This document shows positions 128 to 59,324 of a stretch of DNA of 64,000 bases, in pieces. Source of the DNA: Scenedesmus sp. ARA3 (lineage: Eukaryota > Chlorophyta > Chlorophyceae > Sphaeropleales > Scenedesmaceae); contig RWJK01001715.1 in assembly GCA_004335835.1 (NCBI GenBank), positions 16,198 through 80,197 on the forward strand, read 5' to 3'. Position 1 is the stretch's first letter, and each line of letters begins with the position of its first letter. Under the pieces are notes generated by a model. That model was not told the DNA's origin, did no database searches, and was given only the letters and a program-made list of their open reading frames with translations. The translations under genes and the position numbers were made by a program.

Positions 128-1435
128 ATCATCATGGCTGCCGTCACTGCTGCACCCCTCATCATCCTCTTCTCCACTACTGCTATCCCTCACACCAGCA
201 GCAGCAGCAGCAGCAGCATCGCCAGCGTCATCACTTCCGTCATCTATCACTATCACATCCCCTACTCCTGCTCTACCCTGCTGCTGCCTATCACTGCTAC
301 CTACTCTACCCTGCCTGCTGCTGACTACACCTACACATGACTCTACCTGTGCTGCTCGCCCTGCTGCTGCTGCTGCAGCGCCAGTCCCTATGCCTCTGCC
401 CCTCCCCATCATGCCCCCAGCCCCTGGTAGCCTGCCTCCAGCAGCAGTGGCAGCAGCAGCAGTAGCAGCAGCAGCAGCTGCTGCTGGCTGGTCTGCCTCG
501 TCATCGTCCTCTAGCTCATCACTGTCATCTATGACCTGCCGCCGCCGCTGCCGCCCCTGCTGCTGCTGCTGCACTCCGCCTGCAGCAGCACCTTCCCGCT
601 GCTGCTGCTGCTGCTGCCGGCCGGCAGTTGCGGCCCTGCCTCCAAACAGCTGCTGCTGCTGCTGCTGCAGGTCATCTGCTAGCTCGGAAGGCTCCTCTAT
701 CTCATCTGTTACTTCTGTTACTTCTGTTACTTCCGTAGCAGCTGACTCAGAGGCCAGCACCCTGCCCCTGCCTTGCCTGCCTCTGCTGCTGCCCCTGTTG
801 TCTCGCCGCCCAGCTGCTGCTGCTGCAGCGCGCCCCTGCTGCTGCTGCTGCAGCCGCCTGTTCCCTAGCAGCTCCTCACCCTCGTCCTCCTCCTCCTCAT
901 CTCCTTCGTCCTCTTCCGACTGTGAACACTCAACTTCACTGCCATCTTCACACTCCTCTTCATACTCATCCTCCTCCCCTGCCGCCTTGTACCAGCTAGG
1001 TGTGTCAGCCAGTGCAATACCAGCCGGCTCATCACCCGACAAGCCACCACCCCCACCTGCATCAGGTGGCGTCTCATCCAGCCAACCATCTCCTGCCCCA
1101 GCAGCAGCAGCAGCGGCAGCAGCAGCAGCAGCAGCAGGCTCCTTCTTACTGCCTTTTCTGGATCTCCAGCCGCCATCCTCTCCTGCCTCACCCTGTCGCT
1201 GCTGCTGCTGCTGGGGCTTGCTGACGTGGCGTGGCCGTGCCCTGTGCCTGCCATTGACCAGTGCCCACATGTCCAGCCCGCCGCCTGGCGTCTGCTGACT
1301 CAGCAGCAGCGAGCGGTGGTACAGGCCCATGCCGGGCGTGGAGCTGCAGCAGCGGCAGCAGCAGCAGTAGCAGCAGCAGTGTCAGACAGCGGCAGCGAGC
1401 GTTGATACAGGCCCATGCCAGGCGTGGAGCTGCTG

Positions 1436-1466
<31 letters not shown>

Positions 1467-2200
1467 GTTAGCAGGCACCGCTCAGTCGCGTCAGTGCCAC
1501 TTGCAATGGTGACCGCGCTGCCTCGCATACCCTGGCATAACACACAGCAACAACAAGCGCTTGCAAATACTCACCGCTCAGTGGCGCTGCTGCCGCCTGG
1601 TGTTGTGGCCTCAGTGCCGGTTGCAATGAAGATCAAGAGGTCATCATCCTCGTCCTCGTCAGCAGCTGAGTCACCACACTCAACCAATCAAGCGCTCACC
1701 GCTCAGTTGCCTGCTGCCGCCTTGCTCGCTGCCACACGTTTTGCTACTAATGCCCGCAGTGGGCACCCTTTAGACGCTAATATCTTTAAACAATGTGACA
1801 AAGCATCAGGCACTCTCTGCTCAGTGGCGCCGCTGCCGCCTGGTGTGGTGGCCTCCGTTGCAATCAAGCCCGACAGGTCGTCATCCCCGTCCTGTTCAGC
1901 AGCTGAGTCAGCACATTCAACCCCATCAAGCGCCACTGCTCAGTTGCCCTGCTGCCGCCTTTCTGGCTACCACACGTTTTGCTACTACTGCGCGCAGCAG
2001 GCACCCCCCAGGCAGTCGATACCTTGAAACAATGTTCAAAAAGCCTCAGGCACTCACCGCTCAGTGGCCCCGCTGTTGCTTGGCGTGGTGGCGTCTGTTG
2101 CAATGAAGCCCGACAGGTCATCGTCCTCGTCCTCGTCAGCAGCTGAGTCAGCAGCTGAGTCGTCACTGTCAGCCTCTGCCGCCTCGTCGATGAAGACGCT

Positions 2201-2248
<48 letters not shown>

Positions 2249-7296: not shown

Positions 7297-10200
7297 ATCT
7301 CCTGCAAACACAGCCTCCGCTTCATCCTCCTCTGCCAGATATGCTCTGCTGCTGCTGCTGCCGCCGCCAAGCTGCCTGCCGGCGCTGCCGCCACGCGCAC
7401 GCTTCGCAAGAGCAGCATAACCCAGCCCCGGCTCGGCCTGTGCAAACAGACCCGCAGCGCCAAAGCCTTGCTGCTGCTGCTGCTGTGGGTCTTTGGATCG
7501 CTTGCGCTTCTGTGCGGCGCCGCTGGTGCCGGCTGCTGCTGGAGGTGCTGCTGCGGCTGCGGTGTTGCTGCGTTTGCCGCGCGGCTTCGTCGCCTGCAGC
7601 AGTCATTATTGATGCAGCACAGCAGGTGCTTCGACTGTCCAATAAGCCTGTGTGCCTAGTGGTGCACGATGCTGGCAGCCTGCAAGACATTGCAGCTGAA
7701 ATTTGCCCTGTGTTACTGCACCATCGCTGCTGCCACAACAACTTGAAGCAAGTGCAGCAGCAGCAGCGACAGCAGCAGCATACGTAGTAGGGGCGGTGAC
7801 TGCTGTCATCACACGCACCTGCTGCGCGTCAGGCAGGCAGCAGCGATGCCTGTGCTAACAATAGCGCATGAGCCGCCACAGAATGCGCCAGCAGCAGCGA
7901 CAGTACTAGCATAAGCCATCGCACGCGCCTGCTCTGTGTCTGGCAGCGCCGCCAGTGTAGGCATGTCACTATACCATTACTGCTGCCACAGCAAGGAGCA
8001 AGTGCAGCAGCAGCAGCAGCACATAAACCACCACCACCAGCAACAGTAGCAGCAGTGACTGCTGCTATGACACCCACCTGCTCTGTGTCTGGCAGTACCA
8101 CCAGTGTGGGTGTTGGGGTGATATCTGGCGGCAGCATCGCTACCTCAGACTTGTGCAGGTCAAAGTTGCTGGCACGCAAGTGCGCCTGCACAGCAGCAGC
8201 AGCAGCAGCAGTGGCCGGTCACGCAGCATGAACATGTGGCAAGATACACGTCTGCAAAACGCAGGCCATGCAACGGCTGGCAGGGCGGCAGCAGCAGCTC
8301 CCTGAACCCTCCCTTGCATGGAAAACCCAGAAGTTAACAGGTGAAATGGCAGTTGCGCGTCAAACACCGCCTTCAGCTACACCGGAGGGAAGATAGGTAG
8401 TGTGCATGGGATGCGTTCAAAATGCAGCCACCCAGGCTCAAACTGGGGACCTTGTGCGTGTGAGGCACACGTGATGACCAGCTACACCATGGCTGCTGCT
8501 GCTGCTGCTGCTGCTGCTGAGGTCATAGCATGCTGGAGCCGGTGTTGCCAGCTCCACCTGGACGCCACCAGCGGTGCGGCGTTTGTTCCGCCAGTGCTGC
8601 GACGTTCCAGATTTTCGGGTGTTCGTTGCACCGTAGTTGCCTGTGCCCACACCGTGTAACCCCTCTTCTATTGAAAAAAAGTGCTGCGACAGGGCGGCTG
8701 GTCAATCTGTGATGGCGTACGCCTCATGAACACACCGTGTAACCCCTCTATCTTTCTATCTGTCAATCTGTGATGGGCCCCGGACCCACCTTGACCAGCT
8801 GCGGGGTTCTCACGATACGTGAGCTGAAAGAGGGGCAAGTGACGCACTCTAGAGTGATAGGTTGCCCACACCCCTGTAACAGACCTCTCTCCGCTGCTCC
8901 TTGGCATGGTTGTCCTGGTAGTGCTGCGCCTCGCGCCCCTTCACCCAAAACCTAAACCTAAATCCCCCAAGCCCTAATAACCACCCAGAACTCTTTAACC
9001 CTCACCAACCCTGAGCCCACCTTGACCAGCTGCTCCTTGGCGTGGTTGAACTCGTAGGGCTGCGCTCCCCGCCCCTCGCTGAGCAGCGTCACCACGCGGC
9101 CCAAGTGGCTAACCACAAACCACAAACCCAGAACCACACCCTAACATAACACATCATAACAGCAAACCCCACCTTGACCAGCTGTTCCTTGGCGTGGTTG
9201 TCCTCGTAGTGCTGCGCCTCGCGCCCCTCGCTGAGCAGCGTCACCACGGACCCTTGGGTGGCCAACACCACACCCCAAACCCTCAACCACACCCTAACAT
9301 TACAAATCATAACAGCAAATCCCACCTTGACCAGCTGCTCCTTGGCGTGGTTGTCCTTGTAGTGCTGCGCCTCGCGCCCCTCGCTGAGCAGCGTCACCAC
9401 GCGGCCCAATTTGCCAACACCAAACCCCAAACCCTGAACCACACCCTGACATGACAAATCGTAACGCTAAAACCCACCTTGACGAGCTGCTCTTTGGCGT
9501 GGTTGTCCTCGTAGTGCTGCGCCTCACGCCCCTCGCTGAGCAGCGTCACCACGCACCTCGGGTGGCCCCAAACCCCAAACCCTATACCAGAAACACCAAC
9601 AACTTGAACCCTAACAGCAAATCCCACCTTGACCAGCTGCTCCTTGGCGTGGTTGTCCTCGTAGTGCTGCGCCTGCCGGCCCTCGCTGAGCAGCGTCACC
9701 ACGCGGCCCAAGTGGCCAAAACCAAACCCTAAACCCTGAACCACACCCCAAATATCTTGAACGCTAACACTAAACCCACCTTGACCAGCTGCTCCTTGGC
9801 ATGGTTGTCCTCGTAGTGCTGCGCCTCCCGCCCTTCGCTGAGCAGCGTCACCACGCGGCCCAAGTGGCTAACCCCAAATCCCAAACCCTGAACCACACCC
9901 TAACATTACAAATCGTAAAGCTAAAACCCACCTTGACCAGCTGCTCCTTGGCGTGGTTGTCCTCGTAGTGCTGCGCCTCCCGGCCCTCGCTGAGCAGCGT
10001 CACCACACGCCCCGGCCTGCTGCGCCCGGTGCGGCCCTCGCGCTGCCGCATGCGTGATGGTGAGGATGCGTCCCAGCAGATGATGAGATCCACCTGCAGC
10101 ACACACGCATGTAGTGGCACACATGCACGCTTGTGACAGCTTGACTACATATGTACATGTGCAGGTGAGGGCGAGGAGGCGTCCCAGCAGATGATCAGGT

Positions 10201-10963
10201 CCACCTGCAGCACGCATGCTCATGATGTGTCATTTGGACTGTCTTTCAGTGCACGATCTCTGCCGCTATAGTGTAGCACAGGAGACCATGCATTTTGTGA
10301 TGGCAAAGAGGCGTCCCAGGCTGGGACTCCCAGCAGATGATCAGGTCGACCTACAGCACACACGCATTTGGTGGCACCCATGCACGCTTGTGACAGCTTG
10401 ACTACATATGTACATGTGCATGTGAGGGCGAGGACGCATCCCAGCAGATGATCAGGTCCACCTGCGGTGTACAGAGATCAAGTGCGGCGCAGATCCATGC
10501 ACTATTCAGAGGTGCACTGACGACGTCCAAAATGCATCCCAGCAGATGCTCTGGCCACCTGCGGTGTGCAAAATCCGCAGCACCCTGTTGGTACCCCACA
10601 TGCACCACACTGCTTTCTGATAGAGCCTCTAGGCTTCAAATTGATGGTTGATTGACAACTAGGTATTCTCCTACCTGAGCGATGTCCAGCCCCTCTTCCC
10701 CAATGCAGGTTGCCAGCAGCACGTTGAAGCAGCCCTCCAGCCAAACAACATGCGAACACCTCTCTCAACTCGACCCTGTACAGTTATGGGGTGTATGTCG
10801 AGGTTCAGCCTTTTGCCAGACTCCCACCTGGGGAATGTCCAGCCCCTCTTCCCCAATGCAGGTCGCCAGCAGCACGTTGAAGCAGCCGTCCCGGTACTCC
10901 TGCAGCACGCGCTGCTGCTCCTTCTGCTTCATGCCACCAGCCAGCTCCCCCAGCTCAGCCAGC

Positions 10964-11005
<42 letters not shown>

Positions 11006-14000
11006 CCGCCCCCGGAGCCTGCTGCTGCTGCTGCCTCGCTGCCCTTCTTGCCACCCTTCTTGGTGGTGCTGCGGCTGCTGGCGTTGCCCTGTCCGATGAA
11101 GGCCCTGTGGGATAATCACAGATTCATTCCAAAGGCAGCACAGACGAAAGCAGAGCACACAACAGTGTTTTGAAGTATATCTGACGATTGACAATTTGGG
11201 CCAGTGTTAGTCTCTACAGCCGTGCAGACTACATACGTAGCCGACAAGCTGCCCCTGTACCAGCATGGTGCTGCTGCTAGAGCCCGCGAGCATCAAAACA
11301 CCAAAACACCTGCAACGTGGACATGCTACTGTTGCACGGTGTACCTTGTGGTGCTGTACAGACCATGTAACCCCTGCCCACTTGGCCTGTATCACAGGCT
11401 CGAACCATTGCCAGCACTGCTACGTAGAGTGTGTACGCTGCTGCTGTACAGTACATGTGCGCCCAGGCCTTTGGGACCACCCCACACCCACCTGGCCTGT
11501 ATGAGCGGCTCATACTGCCTCAGGTACTGCTGCAAATTGTCTGTGCGCTACCGCTGCACAGTGTGTGTGCCGCCCACCTGTCTGCTGACCCAACCCCACA
11601 CCCACCTGGCTTGTATCATCGGCTCGTACTGCCTCAGGTACTGCTGCACCATGGCCACCTCTTTGAGGTAGGTGCAGAACACAATCGCGCGCCCGGGGCC
11701 CCCATCGGCCCCCTCTGCTGCTGCTGCTGCTGCTGCTGGCTGGTCAAAGTGCTCCTGCAGCAGCTGCCCCAGCACTGCCAGCTTTGGGTGCGGCACAGCA
11801 GCGGTGGCCTGCACAGCAGCAGCAGCAGCAGCAGCAGCAGGTTGGGTGCATTTTTTGTATGAAACCAAATGTGTGATTGCACATCCTACTGGCTAAGCGT
11901 GGCCTCCGGCAAAAGCACCACACTTGCAGCAGCTACAACATCTGCAACTAAGTGCTTGCACCTACACCTGCCATGACGGCTGGCTACACTTCCATGACAC
12001 ACAATACGCCCAACCTCCCGAACCTACCTCCAACCTCCGCAGCAGATCTTTAGATGGCGAGCACCGCACATGCAACAACCTACCGCCCCCTCCCCAGTTC
12101 CACCTGCAACCCTCTCTGTGACGTAACACTGCAATCGCCATACCCACCTCCAACCTCCGCAGCAGGTCTGCATAGTCCGCCTGGCTCGCCTGGCTCCGCA
12201 GCAGCTGAGACACAGCACGTCTGCCAGTAGCCTCCGCACTGCGCAGCACATCGAGCCCTCCCTTCGACCCCAGCTGCTCATACGCCTCAGCAGCAGCAGC
12301 CAGGAGCAGCAGGCCCTCCCAAAGCAGGTTCACATCACCCCCTAGACCCCATGCAGCACCGCTGCTGCTGCCATCCCTGCCACCTGCACCCCTGCCACCC
12401 CATGAGGGAACCAGGCTGCTGCTGCCACCCCTGCCCCTGCCGCCGCCCCTGCCGCCGCTGCTAGGGAAGGCTGCTTTCGCGAGGCCTGCGCGGCCGGCTG
12501 CTTTTGACCGCGCGTCTTGCACCATGAAGGGCGTGAGCAGTTCATCTGCATGAAACATGAAGCCGGCCTGCGACAGCACACATAAAGGAAAAAGGGTTGA
12601 TGGCTGGTTTTAGGCTTGGGGGCTGATCTTGCACCATGTAGGGCGTGAGCAGCTCGTCCGCATGGAACATGAATTAGAATTGAATTGAAATGAAGCCCGC
12701 CTGCGGCAAGATACACACGACGCAGGTCTTCAGGTCCAGGCGCCCAACCATATGGATGTGCAGGCCGTGAGCAGCTTGTCTGCATACACCCTGCAGCAGC
12801 AACGCCGCCCCACCCACACATGGCCAACAGCATATGCAGCCGCAGCAGGCCCACCTCTGCAACTGTGCTCAGCAGCATCGCCAACGGTGTCACGAGCTTG
12901 CTCAGCAGCTGCCGGATCAGGCGCCCCTCCTGGACTGAAAGTTCAAGCCACCCCAAACCTTCGTCCCACAACACAGCCAACCATGCCCCTCTGTATGCAA
13001 CACATACTGTACAGCACACAACAGCACATGAGCAGTGACATGAGGGCGACAGCTCCAGCGCATCCAGCGTGGTAAGAACAGCAGCCGCAGCGCCCACCTC
13101 TGCATCTGTGTTGAGCCGCATCGCCGTCGTCAGCTTGCGTAGCAGCTGCCGTCTCAGCCGCCCCTCCTGGCACTGAAGTTTCAAGGCACCCCAAACCCTC
13201 GTCCCACAACACAGCTAACCATGGCCCTCCGCATATGACACATACTGTACAGCACACAACAGCACATGGGCAGAGCCACCAGGGCGACAGCTCCAGCGCA
13301 TCCACATGTGGTGAAAACAGCAGCCGCAGCGCCCACCTCTGCATCTGTGTTGAGCCGCATCGCCAGCAGTGTAATCTGCTTGCACAGGTCCTCTGCATCC
13401 ACACATGACCAACACAGGAGCTGCAGCGCCCACCTCTGCATCTGTGTTCAGCCGCATCGCCAGCGGCGTCATCAGCTTGCGCAGCAGCTGCCGTATCAGC
13501 CGCCCCTCCTGGCACACCGGCACCAGCCGCTGCTCGCGGCTGCGCACGTGGCAGTGCTTGGCTACGTCAGCGTCAGCGTCATCACGGAACTCGATGCGGT
13601 TGATCATGAGGTTCTGCACCACCGCCTGTTGTGTTTGCAGCAATGGAAGCGCGGTGCGCAAAGATACGAGCGCAGGCCAGTCAGCACGTGGGTCTTGCTA
13701 CCGTAGGGCTAGGTAGCAGCAACGTGGTTTTGCGCTGTCCAGTGAGCGAGCCGCAACACCCAACTCGAACACAACATCTTCTGCTGCTCTTGTCCGCCAT
13801 ATGCTGTGCTTGCATGCCATACTGCGCACCTTGATCTTCTCGTGCGAGTTGCCGGGCGTTGCTGACAGCCCCAGCACTCTGAACACGGCGCGGCGCTCCC
13901 GCAGCAGCTGCACCGACTTGGCCATTGCTGCATCTCCTGTTGCTCTGTGGCACTCGTCCACCACCAGGCACACCAGCTTGTGCGCAGGACAGGTGCCCTT

Positions 14001-15144
14001 CCTCAAGTCATTTTGCAGGCACTGCAGCACATGAGGGATGGCACACAACAATATACAGGTTCAGAGTGGGTATGCTGGTTGCCCTTTGGCACTCGTCGAC
14101 AACAAGGCCCACCAGCTTGTGTGCAGGGCAGGTGCCCTTCTTCAAGTCATTTTGCAGGCACTGCTGCACATGAACGATGGCACACGACAACACACATTTT
14201 CAAGATGGGTGGTGTTGGTGGCCCTGTGGCACTCGCGCACCACCAGGCACACCAGCTTGTGTGCAGGGCAGGTGCCCTTCTTGAGGTTGTTCTGCAGGCA
14301 CTGCAGTGCGCGAAACAGCAATATGCAATGGTACGTAGGCCAGGTGGGTTCAATGTGTTAGCGGCGGCGGTGCTCAGTAACAGCACAACCACGCGGTGAT
14401 ACTGCGTGTGATGCACAGGTGCATCCCTTGCCGCATTGCCAGCACCATGTGGCAGCACAGCTGCACAATGTACGAGGTCAAGCGCTGCGTGGCTTGCTTG
14501 TACTGTGGTCACATCGCTCACACTGTGGTCACAACATCAATAAAAACGCAGCTGCCGCCCGCTGCCGCTGGCTCACCTGGGGAGTGGTGAAGAACATGCG
14601 GTGGTTGTTCCAGTCGTCCATGCGGTCGCTGCCGTTGCCGTGCAGCTTCACCACGTCGTCCTGGCGGCAGCGGCAGCAGCAGCAGCAGCACCGACGGCGG
14701 CGAGAGCAGCAGCAGCAGTGGCGGCGGCAGCAGCAGCAGCAGCGGCAGTAGCAGCAGCAGTGAGGCCATTGCCAATAGCGTGCAGGCTGATGTTGAGGCG
14801 TTGTGTTCCAAGCAACACGCCGCTGTTGAGTTGTGAACAATTTTAGTGCCTATAGCTGCAGCGCCAGTCACGGTTGCTGCAATGCTCTGTACACAACACT
14901 TCACTGCAGCTCATATTGCAGTGAGTGTCACCTTGTGTATGCCCATGAAGGCCTTGCAGGCCTGGAACTAGCACATACCTTACACAGGCTGCAGGGCCCT
15001 GCATTATCCTCTGTTGTGTTGTAGATTTCGGTACCCCTCCCCCCCCCTTTACCTTGTGTATGCCCATGAAGGCCTTGCAGGCCTGGAACTGCTGCTCCAC
15101 CAGCGGCCGCGTGGGCGTGATGAACACCACCTTGCCCTGCAGTG

Positions 15145-15180
<36 letters not shown>

Positions 15181-30975: not shown

Positions 30976-31013
<38 letters not shown>

Positions 31014-31079
31014 CAGCACATGGTGGGTGCAGCGTGCCATGCAGCAGCGCCTCGGGCGCCATGTGGCTCATCGTGCCCT

Positions 31080-31112
<33 letters not shown>

Positions 31113-44418: not shown

Positions 44419-47400
44419 CTATTGCTTAGCAGAAGCTGCAGCATCTGCATCCCCTGCTGTGCTGTCCTGAGTGCTGCTGCCTGCTGAAGCTGCCGCTGCT
44501 GCCTCGTCCCTGCCCAGAGTAGTGTCATTGTACCTGCAAGCAGTTGCAGCCACAAGCGTGTTAGTACGCACAGCAGTCAAAGTAAAACGTTTGCTGATGA
44601 AGAGCTCAGCTGCCTGCAAATGTTGCACACCACGTAATTGATGCAAGAGGCTGCCTGAAGGCTGCTGGCCAGTCAGGCTGGCTGCATGCTGCTGCATCAC
44701 GAGACCGCAGCATGCAGGCATGCGTGATTGTTTGTCACCAGCTGCAGAGGACCAGCTGGAGGTCATTGTCCATCACAATCGCTCTGCCATGCTGGCATGC
44801 ACACACACGGGCAGCCAGGACCTGAGCATGCACACTGAGGCGCATGCAGGACATCAATCTGTTGTAAGTTGCTGAACCAATGCAAAGACTTTCCAAGGCT
44901 GCATCTCTGTCCAGGGTAACCTGTTTTAAAACCCCAAACATCAGAAAACGGACCCTTTACTGAAACATTTGGCAGGCGGGGGGGCTCACCAGGGCAGGTC
45001 CATGTCCTGCTGGTAGTGCCCGACCTGGCGCTCGTTATATAACATGTCGATGGCGCGGAAGCCGATGCTGCTGATGTGGCGCGTCTTCCACCACTCCAGC
45101 GCCATCTCCTTGGTGTAGCCGTACAGCGGCACAGCCAGGTCTGCGGCAGCATTAGCGACAGGTTGTTGGATGTAAGTACTCAGGGTGACCGCGGCAGACT
45201 TGATCCACAGGCAACTTGAATACACAGTCCGTATGGGCTATGTATGCAGACGATGCTGCTACTGCACAAAAGATTTCTAGAGGATTTCTAGACGTATGTC
45301 ACGAGAGCCAACCAACATGCGAAGCGTCTAGAGCGCCATGTGTAAGGGCAGGGGACATCCTGCAGCTCCGGCAGCTTCCTGGAACACCAGCCTACCTGAC
45401 GCCAGGGGAGGGGGCGGGAAGGCACCATCCGGCTGCTCCACGTAGGCGCGCACCGCCTTGAGCCGGTTCACTGTTGCAGGGTCCAGCAGCGACTCAACCA
45501 CCTGGAAACAAATGGCAGAATTATTGAGATTGCAGTGTTATCAGAGCATGACAGGCTTTCAGGGACTAGTTTGAGCCGGCCTACTGTTGCAGGGTCCAGC
45601 AGCGACTCCACCACCTGCAGACAGAAGGGCAAAATTATCAAGATTGCAGTGTTATCAGAGCATGACAGGCTTTCAGGGACTAGTTTGAGCCGGCCTACTG
45701 TTGCAGGGTCCAGCAGCGACTCCACCACCTGCAGACAGAAGGGCAAATTTATCAAGATTGCAGTGTTATCACAGCATGACAGGCGCGCAGGGATCATTTT
45801 GAGCCGGTCAATTGTTGCAGGGTCCAGCAGCGACTCAACCACCTGCAGACAGAAGGGCAGAAACATCAACTTAACATGGACTTTCACCAACCGTATCAAA
45901 GTGAACAACTTGATGTGAAAGTCGAGGCACGCACAGCAGCTTGACCACCTGCCTTCAATGCACTGCCGGCTTGCCCTGCCAGCATGTTCTCAGCAGTTGG
46001 CCTATACCAAAGTTGAAGAGTAACATTTGCAACGACCTTGCAGCAATGTAAGTAACAAATGCAAACACACTCACTCCGCCACCTCGTACACGGTGTTCTT
46101 GCCCACCAGATCCACCACGTTCAGCCGGCCTTGATGGCCCTGACTCTAAAGTTGGTTATAACACATGTAACATAGCAAAAGTAACACACTCACCCGCTCC
46201 GCCACCTCGTACGCGGTGTTCTTGCCCACCAGATCCACAGTCTCCAGCCGACCCATGATGGCCCCGACTCAGAAGACGGTTATAACACATGTAACACATC
46301 AAAAGTAACACACACTCACCCGCTCTGCCACCTCATATGCGACGTTCTTGCCCACCACATCCACGATGTCCAGCCGGCCCATGATGGCCCTGACTCAAAA
46401 GATGGTTATAACACATGTAACACAGCATAAAGTAACACACTCACCCGCTCTGCCACCTCGTACGCGGTGTTCTTGCCCACCAGATCCACAATGTCCAGCC
46501 GGCCCATGATAGCCCTGCTCACTGCAGCCAGCGTGTCATCATCCAGCTTCAGCGCTGCATCCACAGCAGCAGCAAGCGGCCTTGGCACCCCTGGCAGGAA
46601 GTCATCCGGCACACTGCTGCTGCTGCTGCCGCCTTCCCCTGCTGCTGAGTCGGCCGCCTGCTGCTGCTGCTGCTGCTGCTGCCGGTCTGCCTCGTCGAGT
46701 GCTGCTGCCTGTGCCGCCAGGGTCTCTGGCACGCGGCCCAGCACCTCCTTGACGATCGGCAGGAAGTCACAGTCTATGCTGATGTCGGTTTTGTTCAGCG
46801 GCGTGCTCTGCAGCAGCAGCAGGCAGGCGCAGGCAGGTCAGACGCGCAAGGATGAGAGTGAGTAACCTAGGGCAGCTTCAAAGAGCTGGGAGGAGGAGCA
46901 GCACCACACAGATGCATGTATCCCAATAGCAAATACGCATAGGACAGGTAGCTGCCGCGCCCAGGTACAAAAGTAGCAGAACCAAAGCATCACACAGAAC
47001 AGTAGCACTTGGTACACTGCACCTGGTGCAGTCCACACAGAAGCCGTCTCTGCACCTTTTCTTTAGTTTTTTAGTGATTCAAATAGGTTCAGAATTTGAG
47101 TTTTTTCTTAACAAAACCCATCTTTTTTTGGTTTCAAAAGCAATCATATCAAAAATTCCTGCCAAACGCCCCTAAACCTACCTCGATGATCTCCACCAGC
47201 CTGCTGCCCTCCACCTTCTCATCTTCTGCTGACAGCAGCTCGGCAGCAACCGCGCGGATGGCATCGGCTCGTGTCGCCACCAGCTGCTGCGTGCGGCGCC
47301 ACGCCGCCTTCAGCAGCGTCAGCGTCAGCGCGTGGAAGCTGCGGCATGCACAAAGCAGCAATGCGGTGATATTCAGTTTTGATCTGAGCCCTTTCATGAC

Positions 47401-49953
47401 GCCGTCTTGAGCAGCGTCAACGTCAGCGCATGGAAGCTGCAGAACAAAGAGCAGGCGCATGGCAGCAGCAGCAGCAGCAGGGGGTGTCGGCCCTTAAGCA
47501 GCGTCAGCGTCAGCGCGTGGAAGCTGCGGCATGCAGCAAGCCGTGATGCGGTGCAGCAGTCATAAGTGTCAGTGCTTGTCAGTCATGGCAGTAGCGTCAG
47601 CGTGACAGCTGCAGTGTGCAGGACAGCTGCAGCTGCAGCTGCAGCAGCAACAATCGTGACTGCTGCAATAGTGATGGTGTGTGGGAATCGCAGCTGGTCT
47701 TCAAAGCAAAAGAAAGTGGCCAGCGACTCGGGCATGCATGAACGATACAACAAACAGAACACAACAGAACTCAGCAGCAGCAGCAGCAGCAGCAGCAGCT
47801 GCCACACACCCCTGCTCCTCGTCCAGGCCAATGGCCAGCAAGCTGGGTCGCGCAGGCAGGACACACACCATACAACAACCACATGCACTACACAGCAGCA
47901 GCCAGCCACCCCCTCCCGTCATCCAGGCCAACAGCCAGCAAGCTGGGCACCGCCTCGTCTGCCATGCTGCTCTGTTTGGCATCTTCCTATCTGTCTGTAG
48001 CTGCCATACTAGTTCTTCAAGACTACCCTGCTGGTCTCAAATTTTTTCCATTAATAGCAGCAGCCGCCACTCACCCCAGCTCCTCGTCCAGGCCAATGGC
48101 CAGCGGGTCTCGCGCGTTAGCCCATCCGGGGCCATTGCCCAGCATGATGTAGGTGTGCAGCGGCGGCAGCCGCTTGAACCTACGGCAGCAGCAGCAGCAG
48201 CAGCAGCAGTTTCAAGGAAAGCTCAGCATGATGTGTGGGTGCAGCAGCGGCAGCTGCTTCAGCTTGCAGCGAAAGCAGCAGCAGCAGCTGCAGCAGCACG
48301 CAGGGGTGTTCATGCCAGGTGCAGTATTTTCACAGCCGTGGTTGCTGACCCCACGAGCAGGGCTGCGGTCAAAGTCGCATTTGCAAAGGACAGGAACCAA
48401 ACAGCCAAACTCTGAACCCTGACACCCACCTCGGGTGCAGCAGGCTGTTGCGCATGCAGCAGTACGCAATCTGAAAGCAGTCCGCAACAAGCGCTGCTGT
48501 TGGCCTCACCCTAAGCCACACAACAACTCAACCACAGACTCAACCCTGGTTTCAACCCACCTCGGGTGCAGCAGGCTGTTGCGCACGCAGTAGTGAGCGA
48601 TCTGGAAACAGTCAGCAAACGGCGCTGCCGTTGCCTGTACCCCTAAGCCACACAACCGCAGAACCACACACTCAACCCTGAAACCCACCTCGGGTGCAGC
48701 AGGCTGTTGCGCACGCAGTAGTACGCAATCTGGAAGCAGTCCGCAATCGGCGCCACCATTGCCCTCACCCCAGGCTACACAACTGCTAAACCACACACAC
48801 TCAACCCTAATACCCACCTCGGGTGCAGCAGGCTGTTACGCACGCAGTAGTACGCGATCTGGAAGCAGTCGGCAATGGGTGCTGCTGTTGCCAGCGAGGC
48901 AGCATCTGGCCCGTGCTCTGCCACCTCCCAGGCCCGTGCAGCGTACAGCGGGATAAGCAGGCTGGCCACGTGCAGGAACTCCCCTAGCGGCTCGTCGCCA
49001 ACCTCTGCTGCGTTGACCTGCAAAACAATGTGCAATAGCAAGTAGGTAAGGTGGAAAGGGTCAGCAGGCTGGCCACGTGCAGGAACTCGCCTAGCGGCTC
49101 GTCGCCTACCTCTGCTGCGTTGACCTGCAGATTATATGCAGTGATCAATGTGCGGGTGCAGTGAGATGTGCTGTTGGCATATAGAGTAATAGGTGGGCGG
49201 GATGAGCAGGCTGGCCACGTGCAGGAACTCCCCTAGCGGCTCATCCCCGACCTCTGCTGCGTTGACCTGTAGCAAGTGTGCCGGGCAGTTTGAGGGACAG
49301 ACACTCAGAAGGTGTGAGGGTCAGCAGGCTGGCCACGTGCAGGAACTCGCCGAGCGGCTCATCACCAACCTCTGCTGCGTTGACCTGCAAGATATATGCG
49401 GTGATCAATGTGCGGGTGCAGTGAGATGTGCTGTTGGCATATAGAGTAATAGGTGGGCGGGATGAGCAGGCTGGCCACGTGCAGGAACTCGCCCAGCGGC
49501 TCGTCGCCAACCTCTGCTGCGTTGACCTGCACAACAATTCGGAAAGGTGAGAGGAGTGAGCAGGCTGGCCACATGCAAGAGCTCGACTCCCACGTCTGCT
49601 GTGTTGATGTGCGTTGAACACAACAGCATATGGGTGCGCGTGCAGTGTGAGTTTTCAAAGGGCCGGAACCTTGCAGGGTTACAAGACCAGCTGGTCAGAA
49701 ATCGAGCAGGTCGAAAAGCAGAGGAGGGCAACACAAGGCAGGCACACCCAAAACATTGCAGCATAGGCTTGGCCAAAGCAGGCATTTTGTTTGAAATAGA
49801 CAGCAGGCCGTACCTTGAAGTTAGTTGCCCTGTCCATGATCTCCACCTGCTCCGGGTGCCAGGCTGGGTCCAGGTTGGTGGCGCTGTCAATGAATTGGAT
49901 GTAGGGGCCCTGGCCGCGCCGCCGGCTCCACATGGTGACAAACTGCAGTTTGT

Positions 49954-49993
<40 letters not shown>

Positions 49994-50216
49994 AACAAGC
50001 GTTAAGTTGGCGATGAATTGGATGCAGGGGCCCTGGCCACGCCGCCGGCTCCACTTGGTGACAAACTGCAAAATGAACCAGCGGCAGCAGCAGCAGCAGC
50101 ACCACCAGCAGCAGCAGCAGCAGTAGCAGGAAAACACGCGTCATTTTGGCGATACACTGGTTGTAGGGGCCCTGGCCCCGCCGCCGGCTCCACTTGGTGA
50201 CAACTGCAGTTTGAAT

Positions 50217-50248
<32 letters not shown>

Positions 50249-53200
50249 GAGGCACAGGAAAAAAGTGGATTGTTGATGACACTGTCATCAACGCAAATGA
50301 AACACAAATGTGCGTCAGCGCCATGGTCACCGCCTTGGCTGCCGTGACCTCCGTCAATCTCTCCTTGCCCCTTCTTCAAAAGCAGTAAAACCGTTGTAAC
50401 AAGCAATTGCCAGCAACGCACCTTGATGGGGTCGATGCCGGGTGTTAAGCGCCATGGCGACCGCCTTGGCTGCGTCACCTCTGCCAGCCTGTCTTTGGCC
50501 TCTTATCAACACTATAACAACTTTACAACAAGCAAACACCAACAACCAACGCACCTTGATGGGGTCAATGCCGGGTGTTAGCGCCATGGCCACCGCCTTT
50601 GCTGCGGTCACCTCTGCCAGCCTGTCCTTGGCCTCTGAGGGTGGGATGCGAGGTGCACTGGGCCCCCACTCCTGAGCTTCAACCAGCTCCAACACCATGG
50701 GCAGGCTGATCTTCTGCACGCTGCGGCGCACCTGCAGATGCAACAGTTGAGAAAGCAGGAAGAACCATCAGTGGGTGCATGAGTGCTGGGGCCCCACTCC
50801 TGAACCTCGACAAGCTCCAGCACCATCGGCAAGCTGATCTTCTGGACGCTGCGGCGCACCTGTGGCGCAAAGATGTTGCAGTCACAACAGGTCACAAAAC
50901 AAAAAAAATACATTCAGCAAGTTTGTTGAGCCTATGCAACCTCCAGCACCCGTGGCAGGCAGCAGAGCAGGAATCTGTGAGCGAACGGCGTGCTAGGATG
51001 CATGGGGCCCCACTCCTGAGCTTTGACAAGCTCCGGCACCATGGGCTGATCTTCTGCACGCTGCGGCGCACTTTGTGTGTTGTGAATGTAACAAGGTAAG
51101 CACAGGCGGCAGCACAGCAAGTAGCTTTCAGTAGGTGTGCAAATGCATGGCCCCTGGGTGCTGAGCTTCAACCAGCTCCAGCACCATTGGCAGGCTGACC
51201 TTCTGCACGCTGCGGCACACCTTTACGGAAAATGTAACAAATGCAGCAAGGCAGTGTGAAGAGTGCGGCGTGATCCACAGCATGGTGCGGCGTGAAGCTG
51301 CCAGCAGGAGGCAGTCAGCAGGTGTATGTGTGTAGGCATTAGTTGTGCAGCTGCCTAATCACAAATACAGCCGACAAGCACATAGTGCGTTTGTTATGTC
51401 ACATTCAACAAAAATAACAACAGATATCACATGTTATTTGAAGCTCACCGTGAGGATGGCTGCCTCGTTCATCAGGTTGGCCAGCGCGGCGGCGCTCCAG
51501 CCCGCAGTCACCTCAGCCACCTGCAGGCCAAAAGCAGAACAAAGCTCAGCGAGTTTTGAAAGCAGCAACTACATTGGCTTCATCGGCATCTGGTAGCCCT
51601 GCAGGATTAGCCTTTAAATGTTTTATTATGGTTCGATTCAGCTTTCAAGGCGTCACCTTGAAGTAGAGCCCCTCATCTTCGATCGGCTTGTTCCTGCCGT
51701 GGTACTTGAGCATCTCTAGGCGCGCCGTGGGGCCGGGGGCAGGGATCTCATACACCACCTGCAAACAAACCAACAACACAAGAAAACGTTTCAGCACTCC
51801 ACACACGTGACACACTTCCTGATGCAGGCACAATGTTGGGATGTTGCGCACCTGGGGCGCTATGCCTCCTTACACACAATCTAGTGCCAAACTTTAGCTG
51901 GTTATCCGGACAGAGCTGCCGGCTGCTATTACCGGCATCCAGCACGTGTTGAGGTGCCGCTCAACCTGGGCAGTTCAGAATCAAGTTTGGCGCAGGGCCT
52001 CCCCTCAAAGCGCCCCGGGCGCAGCAGCCACAGTACATACCTCTGTGCTACGGTTGCATACCTCTGTGCTACGGTTGCATACCTCTGTGCTGTATGCAAA
52101 ATAAACAGCATGGGGCCTCATGCACACCCACCTCGAAGCGCCCGGGGCGCAGCAGCGCCTGGTCCAGTTCCTGCGCCAGGTTGGTGGCGCCGATGGTGAG
52201 CACCTGTGTTATGGCAGCAGCAGCAGCAGCAGCAGGAGTGTGTTGCTGGTGGTGGCAAGAGGGAGCACGGTGGGCTGCATCACGATGCTGATGGCACGCA
52301 ACTCAGCAGCCTGCCTGCATGTTGGCCAAGTTCCACAGGTGCTGTCATAGTATCAACAACGTTGTCGACTCAGCGTGCATGAGTTGCGCAGTGATGAGTC
52401 CTCACCTGCTCCAAATGGCCGTGGATGCCGTCCTTCAGCATCAGGAAGCTCAGCAGCGCGCTCTCGCGCTCCATGCTGCTTAGTACCAATAACAACTAAA
52501 ACAACGACTCATGAACAAATAACAGCAATAATAGCATTGATAACAACCCCACCTGCTCCAGGTGGCCATGGATGCCGTCCATCTGCACCAGCAGGCTCAG
52601 CAGCGCGCTCTCGCACTCCATGCTGCTTCAGTATAACAACTATTATTACATGCATATCAAAAATAACAACAGTAATAACAATTATAACACCCCCACCTGC
52701 TCCAGGTGGCCGTGGATGCCGTCCATCTGCACCAGCAGGCTCAGCAGCGCGCTCTCGCGCTCCATCGACCCGGGGTCGCCGCCCAGGCTGCTGCGGCTGC
52801 GCCCGATGGCATCGATCTCATCAATGAAGATGATGCAGGGAGCCTTCTGGCGCGCAGCGTGGAACAGGCTGTTCACGCGCGCAGCAGCCACGCCTGTCAA
52901 GGAGAAGGACACGGCAAACAACCGATGCATCAGTTGCCTGAGATGTTGCAGAAGGTGCGTGACTGGTTGGGTGGGGGTTTGCGCTGCACCGAGTGCATCA
53001 AGCAGGCATGGCATCGATCTCATCAATGAAGATGATGCAGGGAGCCTTCTGGCGGGCAGCGTGGAACAGGCTGTTCACTCGCGCAGCAGCCACGCCTGCA
53101 GCGAAACAGGCGGGAAGGAGGAGACAGATGTTTGACAGCAATGAAATAGTCAGCAGGAATCATTAGGACTGGAAAGATGGCTGAAGTGCATGAGTGTCTT

Positions 53201-53953
53201 GAAGTGCTCGGTCTGCATTGAGTGTTCATAAAGCAGGGAGGCTCTGCAGGCGTGTGCATGTGTGCCGCAGACATACGCTGATGTGGCGCCATCCCCTGGC
53301 AACCGCACCTGCAAACCTTCCACGAACTTGGAGCCCACTGCCTGCCTCGCCATATTTTATTTGAAAGTACGCCAGCCTCACCATATTTAATTAGAAACAG
53401 CAAACTATGAATAAAAGCACACAATTCGGTGTTTCACAACACAGCAAATTACATAATCCCGCGCACCTGCAAACATCTCCACGAACTCGGAGCCCACTGC
53501 ACTGAGGAAGGTCACGCCAGCCTCGCCAGCAATGGCACGGGCCAGGTACGTCTTGCCTGTGCCGGGCGGCCCCTGGAAGATGATGCCCTGCAGGCGCGGT
53601 CAAACATGGTCAAACATGGTCAAACATGGTCAAACTTTGGTCAAACATGGAAGTCAAATGATGGTGGGTGAGGCTGCAAGGAGGAACTCGCTGCGTCCCT
53701 GTCATAACAAACAGACGGAAGGCACGCACAAAATACTGCAAGCAACGATTCGCGCGTGGACAATCAATTATCTGTGACTGGACCGCAGTGCGCAGGCAGC
53801 GCTGATGCGAATCAAGAAGTCGAAAACATATAACACCACTCACCCTGGGGCAGCGCGCGCCCACGTGCATGTACACGGGGTCCCTCAGCAGCATCTTGAC
53901 CACCTCCCGCATCTCAAACACCAGCCCGGGCGTGCCTGCAGGGCGAACAAAAG

Positions 53954-53984
<31 letters not shown>

Positions 53985-54342
53985 TGGTCAGAGCAGGTTG
54001 TGAAACCTAAGCCACCTGCCAGTGCCTAGACACCTTGACCAGCCCCCGCATCTCAAACACCAGCCAAGGCGCGCGTGCGTGGCAAATGACTAAAAATGGT
54101 GTCACTCCAACAGCTCCTGTGTAGAATTCCAGCCAAATGATTTCTTAATACAGACTGTCTGTGCCACACAACAGCAGGCCGCACCCGCAATGTCGCTGAA
54201 GCACACGCCGGTGGGAAAAACGGCGCCGCAACAAATGCTGCAAAAAAGCTCAAACAGACCGCACCTGCGATGTCGCTGAAGCGCACGCCGGTGTCCTTGA
54301 GTTTGCCGCTCTTGTCGCGTGTCATGAACTCCTTGGCCCTGC

Positions 54343-54380
<38 letters not shown>

Positions 54381-55826
54381 CCATATATTCAGTGCATGCC
54401 GCGGGAGCCGGCGGCTCCCAACAGGCATAAACACGCATCCACATGCATCCACACACCAAACGCATCGTGCTGACCAAAACACGCGCGCAGGATCGCGCAT
54501 CAAGCACGTTGAGTGGTGAAAGCCCTGCAGCAACGCTACCCAATAGCGCAGTAATGCGAGCGTTGATGCAGAAACACAGCCACTCACGGCGCGTGTGTGA
54601 GCCGCTGCCACATGTTCTGCTTCTGGTCCTTGCCCTTGCGCACGTGTGTGCCCATCAAGAAATCTGTGGTCTACCACATCAAAACAGATCCCAAAAACCT
54701 AAGACCCCACTCACGGTGCGCGTGTGAGCCGCTGCCACATGTTCTGCTTCTTGTCCTTGCACTTGCACGAGTTTGCGCATGAAGCAATGCGTGACAAACA
54801 ACGCCTAGGCGTGTCCAAAACAGCACAAAGTATACTCACGGAGCGCGTGTGAGTCGCTGCCACATGTTCTGCTTCTTGTCTTTGGCGCGCCGCCGCTTGC
54901 GCAGGAAGCGCACCAGGCTGGTGGCAGACAGCAGGTTGGTCAGGATGGCCACGCCACGAATGGCCAGGCACACCGCGGCCGCCTTCTCCAAGAACTGCGG
55001 TTCAAAACCCAGTTGTAACAAGAGGATTAGGGTTGCAAGACAGCAGGTTGGTCAGAATGGCCACGCCGCGGATGGCCAGGCACACCGCAGCCGCCATTCT
55101 CCAAAACTGCACGAACAGCAGCACATGGTAATCATTCACAGTGACAAAGTGTGTTTAAAACGTTATTTTGCAGCAAACCCAGCTGCGGCATCCTCAACCA
55201 GGAATTGCGGCATGCAATTAAAAACAGCGTGTTGAAGCAGCACAGTAATAAAATGCAGTCACAACAAAGGAAAGGCTCAGCTGTTGACAACTGCATCTAC
55301 CAATGGTTTGACAGTAACAACAGCAATTCAGCCACACCTGCATGGGGCGCTCGTCCAGCAGCCAGCCCAGGGAGGCCACAGCTGTCCAACATCTGGTTTG
55401 AATTCAACAATAATAACAATAACAACAGAAATAACAGCCGCACCTGCATGCGGCGCTCTTCCAGCAGCCAGCCCAGGAAGGCCGCAGCTGTCCAACATTG
55501 GGTGTGAATTCAACAATAACAACAATAATAACAAAAGTAACACCCCGCACCTGCATGCGGCGCTCGTCCAGCAGCCAGCCCAGGAAGGCCCAGTTGTCAG
55601 CAGCGTCCAGCAGCTGCAGCTCCGTGCGCACCTCGCCCAGCTTGGTCAGGTGCTTGTAGGGCAGCACGTACTGCCGGCTGGCGTCATCCCACAGGATCTA
55701 CAGCAGCAGCAGCAGCAGCAGCAGCAAACAGCTTAGTGTGTGCATGCAAGGCAGCACGATTATGCAGTTTTGCCAGGTGCTTGTAGGGCAGCACGTACTG
55801 CCGGCTGGCGTCGTCCCAAAGGATCT

Positions 55827-55882
<56 letters not shown>

Positions 55883-55940
55883 GTGATCGGGTGCTTGTAG
55901 GGCAGCACGTACTGCCGGCTGGCGTCGTCCCACAGGATCT

Positions 55941-55981
<41 letters not shown>

Positions 55982-57831
55982 GTGATCGGGTGCTTGTAGG
56001 GCAGCACGATACTGCCGGCTGGCGTCGTCCCACAGGATCTGCAGCAGCAGCAGCAGCAGCAGCAGCAGTGTGATCGGGTGCTTGTAGGGCAGCACGTACT
56101 GCCGGCTGGCGTCGTCCCACAGGATCTGCAGCAGCAGCAGCAGCAGCAACCTCTGTATGCATGCAATTCAGCGGCGCATTTCTCTCCTCAGGCGCTTGTG
56201 CAGCAGGAGCAGCTCCACCAACCTCACATGCACCAACTCAAACACTTCACGCATAAACCTTGAAACTTGGAAACCGAACTGCAGGCACCGCACCTGCACC
56301 TCGCGCTCCCGCAGGTATCGCAGCAGTGCGCCGCTCTCCCAGAAGTCACCCGGCAGGTCCAGGTAGAAGCGGTACTTCTCCATGTCCCACTCTGGCATCT
56401 CGGGGCTGAACCACTGGCTGCAGGGTTTGAAAAGCAACAACAAATGCCTGTGTGAGCAGAGTATATGATGTGGAGTAGAAGCGGTACTTGACTCTGGCAT
56501 CTCAGGGGCTGAACCACTGGCTGCAGGGTTTGAAACGTAACACAGAAGAAGACAGGAGCAGCAGGGTTTGGGTGAGTGCAGTACAATGGGATCGGTACTT
56601 CTCCATGTCCCACTCCGGCATCTCGGGGCTGAACCAGTGGCTGCATATTGCATGGAAAAACAACAAAAGATTGATTTTGTGAGCAGGGTGTATGATTTGG
56701 AGTAGAAGCGGTACTCCACTCTGGCATCTCGGGGCTGAACCACTGGCTGCAGGGTTTGAAAAGTAACAAACAAGGAGACAAGGGCAGGATGGTTTGAGTG
56801 AATGTCGTGCAATGGAATCAGTACTTCTCCATGTCCCACTCCGGCATCTTGGGGCTGAACCACTGGCTGCTGTTCATAAAAAAGTATCACAACACACAAG
56901 TTGCTGGCTGAGTGAGTGGTGTGCAGTTGAGTAGAAGCGGTGCTTCTCCATGTCCCACTCCGGCATCTCGGGGCTGAACCACTGGCTGCATGTGCATGGA
57001 AAATAACAACAAAAGATTGATTTTGTGAGTAGGCTGTATAGATTTGAAGCAGAAGCTGTACTTCTCCATGTACCACTCCGGCATCTCGGGGCTGAACCAC
57101 TGGCTGCAAGTGGGGAGAAAAATTGATGCATGCTTTGGGTCACTGATTGCTGTGCGCTGCAGTGTGCCGTGGACGCTGCAATGTGACAAACGTCGGACAC
57201 GATGACAACATTTTTGTGGGGTGATTGGGACGTGTGGATGTCAGAGGGCAGGTACTTTGCCATGTCCAACTGCAGCGTGTTGGGGCTGAAATCACTAGCA
57301 TGTTGAATGTAGTACTCTGGCCTTGTTGTAAACAATCAGGAGAAGCGTGCGCCTCACCTGGGGTCGTCGGGCGCTGCCGGGTTTGGCACCAGTATGCCCA
57401 GTGGCGCTCCGTCCGGCCCCAGGTACTGCCCGTACTGGCCAGGGGCGCCCGCGATGTTGGCGCTCCAGGGGTGCGGCACCTGCAGGATACAGATGATGAG
57501 GCAATTGATTGAGTACCAGGCAAAAGTTTGGGTCGATGTCTTTGCTCCACTAGTGGATGTCTTACTGTGACCGCGGCAACACTCTACTGTTGTGGGTGGG
57601 TCTGACTGGCTGCTACGCATGCCCCGCCTTCCGCCATGATGATGTGCATGTCGCCGCATATGATGAGCCGCGCACATGTAGGCAATGCTGGCAGGCTGCT
57701 GCACGTCTCTGCAACCTTCAAAACGGATATAGACCCCGCACCTCTACGATGGCTGTGCGAATGTCGCCGGAGATGATGAGCCGCTTGATGCGGTGCATGC
57801 ATTTGCATGTGTTGCACAAGCACGATGGACA

Positions 57832-57878
<47 letters not shown>

Positions 57879-59273
57879 AACAAATCGTACCTCCACGATG
57901 GCTGTGCGCATGTTGCCGTAGATGATGAGTTGCTTGATGCAGTGCATGCAAATGCATGTGCTGCTGCTGCTGCTGCTGCATTCAGTCTCACCTCCACGAT
58001 TGCGGTGCGCATGTCACCGTAGATGATGAGGCGCTTGATGCGGTGCCGCTCCAGCAGCGCCAGGAACTTGGCGTAGCTGATGCGCATGTCGCCCACAAAG
58101 CCCGCAGTAGGCACCTTGCTCTCTGTGAGTAACAAGTGGTGAGACCAAACGACGCGCAAAGCATGGTCAGGTCAGCAGGAGATGACAGGTCAACCAAAAT
58201 GCCAGGTCAATCAGACAATGTTCATGCCGGTTACAATGAACAAAACAACTGGGAGCTTGCTCGCTGCAAGCGGCACAAGAAGTCTTGGTACATCAACATG
58301 ACAGCAAGCAACCAACAGCCATATCTGATGCGGTCCGGACACTTGTTCCATCCTAATTGCCGCCCATCCCCATTCCAGTCTCCCCACCACCACCACCAGT
58401 GCCCACGCCCACTCACTGTAGCTGATGCGGTCCCACAGCTTGTTCCAGACCAGCTGCGGCTAATCACATCACAAACCACATGCAGTTCTACGGATTGCAG
58501 CCGCTGCCCAAGCCCACTCACTGCAGCTGATGCAATCCCACAGCTTGTTCCACAGCAGCCGTGTCTCCTCACATCACAATGAGCAGCCCACATGTATGCA
58601 GCACGCGCATCAGCTGCTTCATCGCAGCCGCTGCAGTCCCACAGTAAGCGCTGGTGTACGCTTGCAAGGCCCCGCCAGGCCCTGGTTGCTGTTGTTGATA
58701 TGAGTGTGTGACATGCAACGCTCACTGTAGCTGATGCGGTCCCACAGCTTGTTCCACAGCAGCTCCGGCTCAATATAAACCCTCTGCCCTTGCTGCACCA
58801 TTATGACCACAGCTGCCACCCCTGATTTTAATCCCAAGCCCACTCACTGTAGCTGATGCGGTCCCACAGCTGATGGGCAATTGCAGGCCCCGGCTGCCAT
58901 TGTTTCACTGATTGTCAGTCACGCTGTGTAAATCTACCCACTCACTGTAGCTGATGCGGTCCCACAGCTTGTTCCACAGCAGCTCCGGCTCGTTCCACAC
59001 CACCGCCTGCTTGAGCGTGAGCCACATCTCAGGGTCCCACACATAGCTCAGGTCCAATCCCGTTACTGGGAAGGTCCAGTCCATGAAAGTGAGGCTCTCC
59101 TGAAACTGTGGATGCAACACAGCGCAGACAACATGGCAAGTTGAGTGTTGAAGCGACTTGTGTTGCACTGGTGTAATCGAGCTGTTGGATGAATCAGCCA
59201 CATCTCAGGGTCCCACGCGTAGCTTGAGCCCAGCCCTGTTACTGGGGAGGTCCAGTCCATGAAGGTGAGGCTC

Positions 59274-59324
<51 letters not shown>

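Follow-up and report, generated by a model that had tools for sequence, protein, structure and literature searches.

Tandem copies of exon edges inside the introns of a scenedesmacean green alga

In a 64,000-nucleotide stretch of DNA from Scenedesmus sp. ARA3 (GenBank assembly GCA_004335835.1, contig RWJK01001715.1, positions 16,198 to 80,197; hereafter the window), the introns of three genes, encoding an FtsHi-like protein (Fhl1), a CHASE-domain kinase and the helicase FANCM, hold degenerate tandem copies of the edges of their adjoining exons. We call such an intronic copy an echo, and the copy that is still joined to the exon body the working edge. The phenomenon is real, extends to other contigs and is tied to splice junctions; in our judgement it is best explained, with somewhat better than even confidence from the sequence comparisons below, by junction-spanning tandem arrays that still exchange sequence with the working exon edge.

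Exon-edge copies in the window

The sequence comes from an 87-Mb assembly in 1567 contigs, the single assembly used. The FtsHi-like gene product matches Chlamydomonas Fhl1 (PDB 8xks_D, 8xqw_A), and protein-to-genome spliced alignment gave near-complete identity over 1077 residues with a public Tetradesmus obliquus protein, P0001 (OEZ85_003491); the CHASE kinase, with 19 exons by spliced alignment, matches T. obliquus P0241. These two matches assign the window to T. obliquus or to a strain very near it. Both gene models were thus set independently of the repeats, and among the 24 Fhl1 exons obtained from P0001 one is itself an echo, leaving 23 working exons. The model of the FANCM core, built from exons recurring with several distant homologs, is less certain than the other two.

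Each intron was scanned with the 60 terminal bp of the exon on either side, at a score of at least 20. Copies were found in 30 of 46 tested introns and at 42 of 92 edges of the window (Fhl1, 17/22 introns; CHASE kinase, 8/18; FANCM core, 5/6), 94 copies in all, 42 of donor edges and 52 of acceptor edges. A separate test of two more FANCM donor edges gave 7 and 3 copies, and an earlier sequence-only reading, which had counted about 35 such junctions, was therefore a fair estimate. Totals vary with the threshold, Fhl1 having 57 copies at a score of at least 20 and 54 at a score of at least 22. In a three-gene set consisting of Fhl1, the CHASE kinase and a kinase paralog outside the window (C409), degenerate copies of the adjoining edge occur in 32 of 58 introns, whereas shuffled edges, two shuffles for each of 116 edges, gave copies in 0 of 232 tests.

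The copies stand head to tail, as in a minisatellite or variable number tandem repeat with units of tens to hundreds of base pairs (Tandem Repeats Finder, TRF; copy spacing), at a median spacing of 123 bp (10–90% range 98–171). The repeat unit of about 120 bp spans one splice junction, with roughly 40–90 bp of exon edge (median depth 58 bp) and the remainder intron; the exon part has a median identity of 88% to the working edge (10–90% range 75–96%). A second search, blind to exon positions and with triplet runs masked, found zero arrays at 17.5–26.9 kb and 37.8–44.4 kb and one (63625–63823) at 59.9–64 kb, so that the absence of arrays previously noted between the three genes is a real local contrast for these intervals, gene identities aside. 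Divergence had also been said to grow with distance from the working exon: this holds weakly in the window (rho -0.25, p = 0.027) and falls short of significance in the three-gene set (15 versus 7 arrays, sign test p = 0.13).

Introns that hold copies have double the length of those that do not (three-gene set medians 604 bp, n = 32, and 286 bp, n = 26; p = 2.7e-8), a link that is partly definitional, as the copies themselves add length, and the excess over copy-free introns amounts to about 39% of all intron bases. According to PMC5966456, T. obliquus has a mean intron length of 462 bp against 230–302 bp in four other green algae, to which our copy-free introns are close. The initial suggestion of intron growth is supported by these figures.

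Distribution and placement of the arrays

Copies recur well beyond the window. In a random sample of 220 kb, taken as 19 pieces of other contigs, copies accompany 71 of 461 edges predicted with confidence, compared with 0/461 for reversed edges and 1/461 for edges of another locus. The C409 paralog, 975 of whose 983 residues are identical to a public T. obliquus protein, carries copies in 8 of 18 introns at a score of at least 20 and in 7 at a score of at least 22, and two of three further kinase paralogs (partial reads, rough models) have them as well. The partial kinase paralog L032 (C1107:28001–31500) has copies in 0 of 8 modelled introns, all of them short (about 190–315 bp), while other kinase paralogs are copy-rich. 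Because copies recur on other contigs while one paralog and whole stretches of the window hold none, exon-edge arrays are widespread yet patchy; the first impression that they are gene-specific is right as a statement of heterogeneity between genes and wrong as a restriction to three of them.

The location of the arrays was observed directly. In Fhl1 and the CHASE kinase the exon-blind search returned 27 arrays, 25 covering an exon edge and 2 overlapping an exon near its edge; 0 of the 27 were wholly intronic, although 110-bp stretches placed at random in these two genes fall wholly within introns in 62–68% of cases. Among 69 arrays of the random sample, contact with a predicted exon is seen in 59, and the remainder comprises 5 intronic, 3 exonic and 2 intergenic arrays; where an array contains a pair at least 92% identical, 16 of 18 touch an exon and 2 are intronic (chance spanning, 26%). 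Arrays thus lie on exon edges far more often than under random placement, unlike an ordinary minisatellite, whose placement should be indifferent to gene structure (27/27 and 59/69 touch exons here). The random-sample counts are softer than the protein-anchored ones, as they come from a home-made gene finder that was trained on Fhl1 and the CHASE kinase only and may call echoes exons; trained on Fhl1 it recovered 19–20 of 23 Fhl1 exons, and self-training on the random sample was dropped when Fhl1 recovery fell to 11/23.

We also asked whether the arrays predate the kinase gene family. Two old kinase paralogs (L029–L030 and window positions 27169–37719) often have similar copy depths where their edges are homologous (42/43, 36/34, 39/38–41), and depth looked alike at 4 of 7 common edges; with more paralogs the permutation p was 0.15, and we claim nothing from this comparison.

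Table 1. Genes and exon-edge arrays of the window. Positions count from the first nucleotide of the window.
Feature	Position	Strand	Basis
FANCM helicase core	9932..15551	-	distant-homolog exons; 5/6 tested introns with copies
FANCM exon 9932-10093 donor-edge array, 7 copies at ~152 bp	8893..10093	-	tested apart; TRF
FANCM exon 9932-10093 acceptor-edge copies (2)	10071..10465	-	echo search
FANCM exon 10828-10944 donor-edge copy (1)	10668..10891	-	echo search
FANCM exon 11606-11808 donor-edge copy (1)	11377..11648	-	echo search
FANCM exon 13434-13625 donor-edge array, 3 copies	12855..13625	-	tested apart
FANCM exon 13830-14021 acceptor-edge array, 2 copies	13939..14306	-	TRF; echo search
FANCM donor-edge copies: exon 15053-15136 (1), exon 15392-15551 (2, weak)	14930..15353	-	echo search
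CHASE-domain kinase gene, 19 exons; 8/18 introns with copies	27169..37719	-	alignment to P0241; echo search
CHASE kinase intron 17 donor-edge copy	27950..28009	-	echo search
CHASE kinase intron 16 acceptor-edge array, 6 copies; silent variants in mosaic pattern	28283..29125	-	echo + exon-blind search
CHASE kinase intron 16 donor-edge copy	29299..29337	-	echo search
CHASE kinase intron 15 acceptor-edge array, 3 copies	29502..29946	-	exon-blind search
CHASE kinase intron 15 donor-edge array, 3 copies	30245..30667	-	exon-blind search
CHASE kinase intron 14 acceptor-edge array, 3 copies	30696..31079	-	exon-blind search
CHASE kinase intron 14 donor-edge array, 4 copies	31284..31813	-	exon-blind search
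CHASE kinase intron 13 acceptor-edge copy	31866..32023	-	exon-blind search
CHASE kinase intron 9 donor-edge copy	33656..33842	-	exon-blind search
CHASE kinase intron 8 acceptor-edge copy	33877..34054	-	exon-blind search
CHASE kinase intron 6: acceptor-edge array (3 copies) and one donor-edge copy (35199-35258)	34656..35258	-	echo + exon-blind search
Fhl1/FtsHi gene, 23 working exons (44422-44533 ... 59766-59882); 17/22 introns with copies	44422..59882	-	alignment to P0001; echo search
Fhl1 intron 20: donor-edge (3) and acceptor-edge (3) arrays; flank likewise similar in several copies	45458..46521	-	exon-blind search
Fhl1 intron 18 acceptor-edge copies (2)	47301..47523	-	echo + exon-blind search
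Fhl1 intron 18 donor-edge copy	47801..48104	-	echo + exon-blind search
Fhl1 intron 17 acceptor-edge copy	48137..48259	-	echo + exon-blind search
Fhl1 intron 17 donor-edge array, 3 copies	48406..48890	-	exon-blind search
Fhl1 intron 16 acceptor-edge array, 5 copies; 118/142-bp alternation as 260-bp dimer	48948..49650	-	TRF; exon-blind search
Fhl1 intron 16 echo, a 48-bp exon in P0001 (duplicated 16 residues)	49479..49526	-	spliced alignment; internal repeat in P0001
Fhl1 intron 15 acceptor-edge array, 2 copies	49885..50220	-	exon-blind search
Fhl1 intron 15 donor-edge copies (2)	50314..50633	-	echo + exon-blind search
Fhl1 intron 14 acceptor-edge array, 3 copies	50654..51222	-	exon-blind search
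Fhl1 intron 12 donor-edge copy (weak, score 23)	52004..52056	-	echo search
Fhl1 intron 11 donor-edge array, 2 copies	52400..52765	-	exon-blind search
Fhl1 intron 10 acceptor-edge copy	53036..53095	-	echo search
Fhl1 intron 10 donor-edge copy	53304..53500	-	echo + exon-blind search
Fhl1 intron 8: acceptor-edge copy and weak donor-edge copy (54187-54213)	53892..54213	-	echo + exon-blind search
Fhl1 intron 7 donor-edge copies (2)	54582..54884	-	echo + exon-blind search
Fhl1 intron 6 acceptor-edge copy	55047..55104	-	echo search
Fhl1 intron 6 donor-edge array, 2 copies	55315..55598	-	exon-blind search
Fhl1 intron 5 acceptor-edge array, 4 copies; CTG runs directly before acceptors	55638..56127	-	exon-blind search
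Fhl1 intron 4 acceptor-edge array, 7 copies; farthest the most decayed	56363..57299	-	exon-blind search
Fhl1 intron 3 donor-edge array, 3 copies	57634..58046	-	echo + exon-blind search
Fhl1 intron 2 donor-edge array, 5 copies	58322..59003	-	echo + exon-blind search
Fhl1 intron 1 acceptor-edge copy	59230..59277	-	echo search

Some further features of the window were recorded beside these arrays. In the 7-copy FANCM donor array (9932–10093, 8893–9839) nearly the same 18 residues can be read repeatedly. More repeat arrays lie at 1569–2153, 3019–5859 and 7770–8095, within a low-complexity region (1.5–8.1 kb) that has no protein-anchored model, and their exon-edge status is putative only. CAG/CTG triplet runs are very abundant across the window, and some directly precede acceptors, at the position expected of a polypyrimidine tract (for example in 55638–56127).

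Constraint on the echoes, exchange and competing explanations

Working edges and echoes differ mostly at third codon positions (0.063, 0.057 and 0.159 differences per site at the three positions in the three-gene set; 0.068, 0.069 and 0.179 in the random sample), which could be read as coding constraint on the echoes. That reading was overturned in the protein-anchored genes when private and shared changes were separated in 15 arrays of at least 3 copies (8 Fhl1, 6 CHASE kinase, 1 C409). Changes private to a single echo are flat over codon positions (36:34:37, p = 0.94), with a ratio of replacement to silent change (pN/pS) of 0.97 (confidence interval, CI, 0.68–1.33; transition-weighted, ratio 3.5 assumed), while shared variants (7:6:39) and changes private to the working edge (2:0:11) are concentrated at third positions. 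This apparent neutrality of single-copy changes, together with frameshifts in 21 of 99 copies of the three-gene set, means that coding constraint on the echoes of the protein-anchored genes is slight or absent; the silent variants held in common derive from the constrained working lineage.

Several comparisons bear on exchange. Between echoes of Fhl1 and the CHASE kinase (101 pairs) identity is 0.86 in the exon part, 0.63 in the adjacent 34 bp of intron and 0.51 for shuffled flanks, and among 196 filler pairs of the three-gene set (echo–echo and working–echo) 81 are clearly similar, 29 doubtful and 86 without detectable similarity; since the exon part is more alike than the flank, then if both are unconstrained either the exon part is being refreshed or the flank changes much faster. 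Four-gamete conflicts occur at 8 of 38 site pairs within 9 bp and at 34 of 58 beyond (window arrays alone, p = 0.0002). The GC content at third codon positions (GC3) is higher in edges with copies than in those without, both in the three-gene set (0.885 versus 0.810, p = 0.002; at first and second positions, 0.531 versus 0.542) and in the random sample (0.801 versus 0.733, p = 0.003), which is consistent with, though not diagnostic of, GC-biased conversion. The working–echo pN/pS of 0.34 (CI 0.26–0.45) lies below the value of about 0.5 that we would expect were mutation on two equal branches the sole source of silent changes. The exon/flank contrast, the dependence of incompatibility on distance and the GC3 difference are all signs of exchange, none of them final.

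Of the copies in an array, only the one joined to the exon body is needed, the others being non-coding echoes. In the mechanism that we infer for exchange and array birth, copies and working edge would keep recombining over the exon-derived tract, by gene conversion and/or unequal exchange, with silent variants circulating between them and replacement and frameshift variants being purged on reaching the working edge; the intron flank, no longer pairing, would decay, and each net duplication would add one unit to the intron.

An artefact of the fragmented assembly is very improbable. The number of contigs and the N runs in some pieces (gaps or masked stretches) would allow it, and the copy number of near-identical arrays may be off; the copies, however, are at the median only 88% identical to their working edge, a divergence no assembler would create, and a public T. 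obliquus protein from a 5.6-Mb contig of another assembly contains the same duplicated segment. Even less likely is the insertion at exon edges of a dispersed mobile family, for example introners: it would suit the many genes affected, but the units are gene-specific exon sequence, and when a 1.1-kb Fhl1 block and a FANCM block were compared with the whole assembly, in a search that skips simple repeats and very common words, the former matched only itself and neighbouring introns and the latter only itself. These local matches, unlike the similar sequence that introners leave across introns of unrelated genes, exclude for the two blocks a dispersed repeat family, which the sequence-only reading had itself named as its possible refutation, and a second diverged gene copy as the source of the echoes was rejected as well, there being no other locus genome-wide for the Fhl1 block. 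Nor do we think it probable that the echoes are functional, with selection maintaining them for regulation or for robust splicing, either as alternative exon edges or as decoy splice sites. It is true that 67 of 85 copies are free of frameshifting indels and that many give a nearly unaltered translation, that GT is kept in 33 of 42 donor copies and AG in 45 of 52 acceptor copies (78/94 together), that the best echo splice site scores equal to the working site (Wilcoxon p = 0.77), some echo matching or outscoring it in 18 of 36 arrays, and that P0001 counts an echo of Fhl1 intron 16 (49479–49526, 48 bp) as an in-frame exon, at the level of annotation only. Yet private changes are flat over codon positions, a fifth of copies are frameshifted, retention of the splice dinucleotides is no better than the mismatch of about 6% at non-silent exon bases would predict, and four other public T. 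obliquus proteins contain no exact 9-residue repeat within 120 residues; the proposed reservoir of alternative exon edges, or buffer of splicing, is accordingly unsupported.

Plain neutral minisatellites are a more serious rival, to which we give about one chance in four. Here random duplications by slippage or unequal exchange would be tolerated where they cross junctions, one junction staying whole, and would decay with no exchange with the exon. The neutral appearance of private echo changes, the likeness of some arrays over the whole unit (Fhl1 intron 20) and the weak rise of divergence with distance in the window fit this; the lack of wholly intronic arrays in the protein-anchored genes, their rarity among the most alike arrays of the random sample, the better preservation of exon part than flank, the raised GC3 and the distance-dependent incompatibility do not. 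Exchange with the working edge has difficulties of its own. It leaves unexplained why array births favour junctions, and its evidence comes from one genome's sequence, with random-sample exon contacts that rest on our own gene predictions, in which echoes may pass as exons. Unweighted, and over all window arrays of at least 2 copies, private pN/pS falls to 0.60; in the random sample, private changes are biased to third positions (47:40:86, p = 2e-5), a point also in favour of functional echoes, though less strongly than shared and working-edge changes are (p = 0.003); this bias may arise because private and shared changes cannot be told apart in an array of two copies and because the predicted exons include some echoes. 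Part of the exon/flank contrast could stem from rapid insertion and deletion in introns, the GC3 difference could have other causes, and the four-gamete contrast weakens to 7/23 versus 18/37 (p = 0.056) when the array of CHASE kinase intron 16 is left out and has p = 0.11 in the random sample alone. Our confidence in exchange is slightly reduced by the basis of the neutrality test, 15 arrays, and by the less clear picture in the random sample. One residue inside a duplicated Fhl1 edge is asparagine here and aspartate in P0001, and an echo here encodes aspartate, which may be either an old state kept or a transfer.

Relation to known systems and implications

Related cases are known in human genes. 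Gene–pseudogene conversion in human disease lets a broken copy exchange with a working one, selection filtering the result; here the broken copies are exon edges within the gene's own introns. Zhuo et al. 2007 reportedly described human introns that arise from tandem arrays, at new intron positions; both cases turn tandem arrays into intron sequence, but the alga lengthens existing introns instead. IFI6 (6-16) is said to carry, in one gene, a minisatellite of short unit with repeated splice donor sites; its units too contain a donor, whereas the algal units are about 120 bp long, include up to 90 bp of coding edge, and occur on donor and acceptor sides in many genes. The Rogers model has introns gained by tandem duplication of an AGGT-bearing exon segment, and it shares with the alga a tandem duplication involving splice motifs. 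Against its prediction of an upstream-exon copy directly at the acceptor, every one of the 94 copies stays at least 44 bp away from the splice site at the other end of the intron; the arrays are therefore not intron gain by AGGT duplication. Nor do the arrays match tandem-duplicated or mutually exclusive exons, in which a whole exon is doubled with both splice sites and the copies are under coding constraint: the copies here follow one edge, and in the protein-anchored arrays their private changes are flat over codon positions, less clearly so in the random sample. Among the titles and opening abstracts found in the literature, none describes exon-edge arrays in green algal introns; the Chlamydomonas version 6 genome paper, which reportedly discusses gaps and hidden exons, may mention them.

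A close published likeness is to human segmental-duplication genes, in which internal tandem repeats at exon–intron boundaries alter splicing and unequal crossing-over and slippage are invoked (PMC2812944, Genome Biol 2009). That account covers 27 curated, recent intron modifications in duplicated genes, whereas in the alga about half the introns of three conserved genes are affected, by mostly diverged arrays whose unit is tied to one exon edge.

The P0001 case means that echoes can enter the annotations of public proteins. We regard it as possible, more tentatively than exchange itself, that introns throughout the genome form a self-renewing store of neutral exon-edge copies in two-way trade with the working exons, which would lengthen introns, speed silent change at exon edges and oblige splicing to choose among near-identical sites. 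If exchange is right, the arrays would be a concrete and common route of intron lengthening, neither GC3 nor the silent-site rate could be trusted as a clock where exon edges recombine with neutral neighbours, and the affected edges would offer natural tests of splice-site choice among near-identical rivals.

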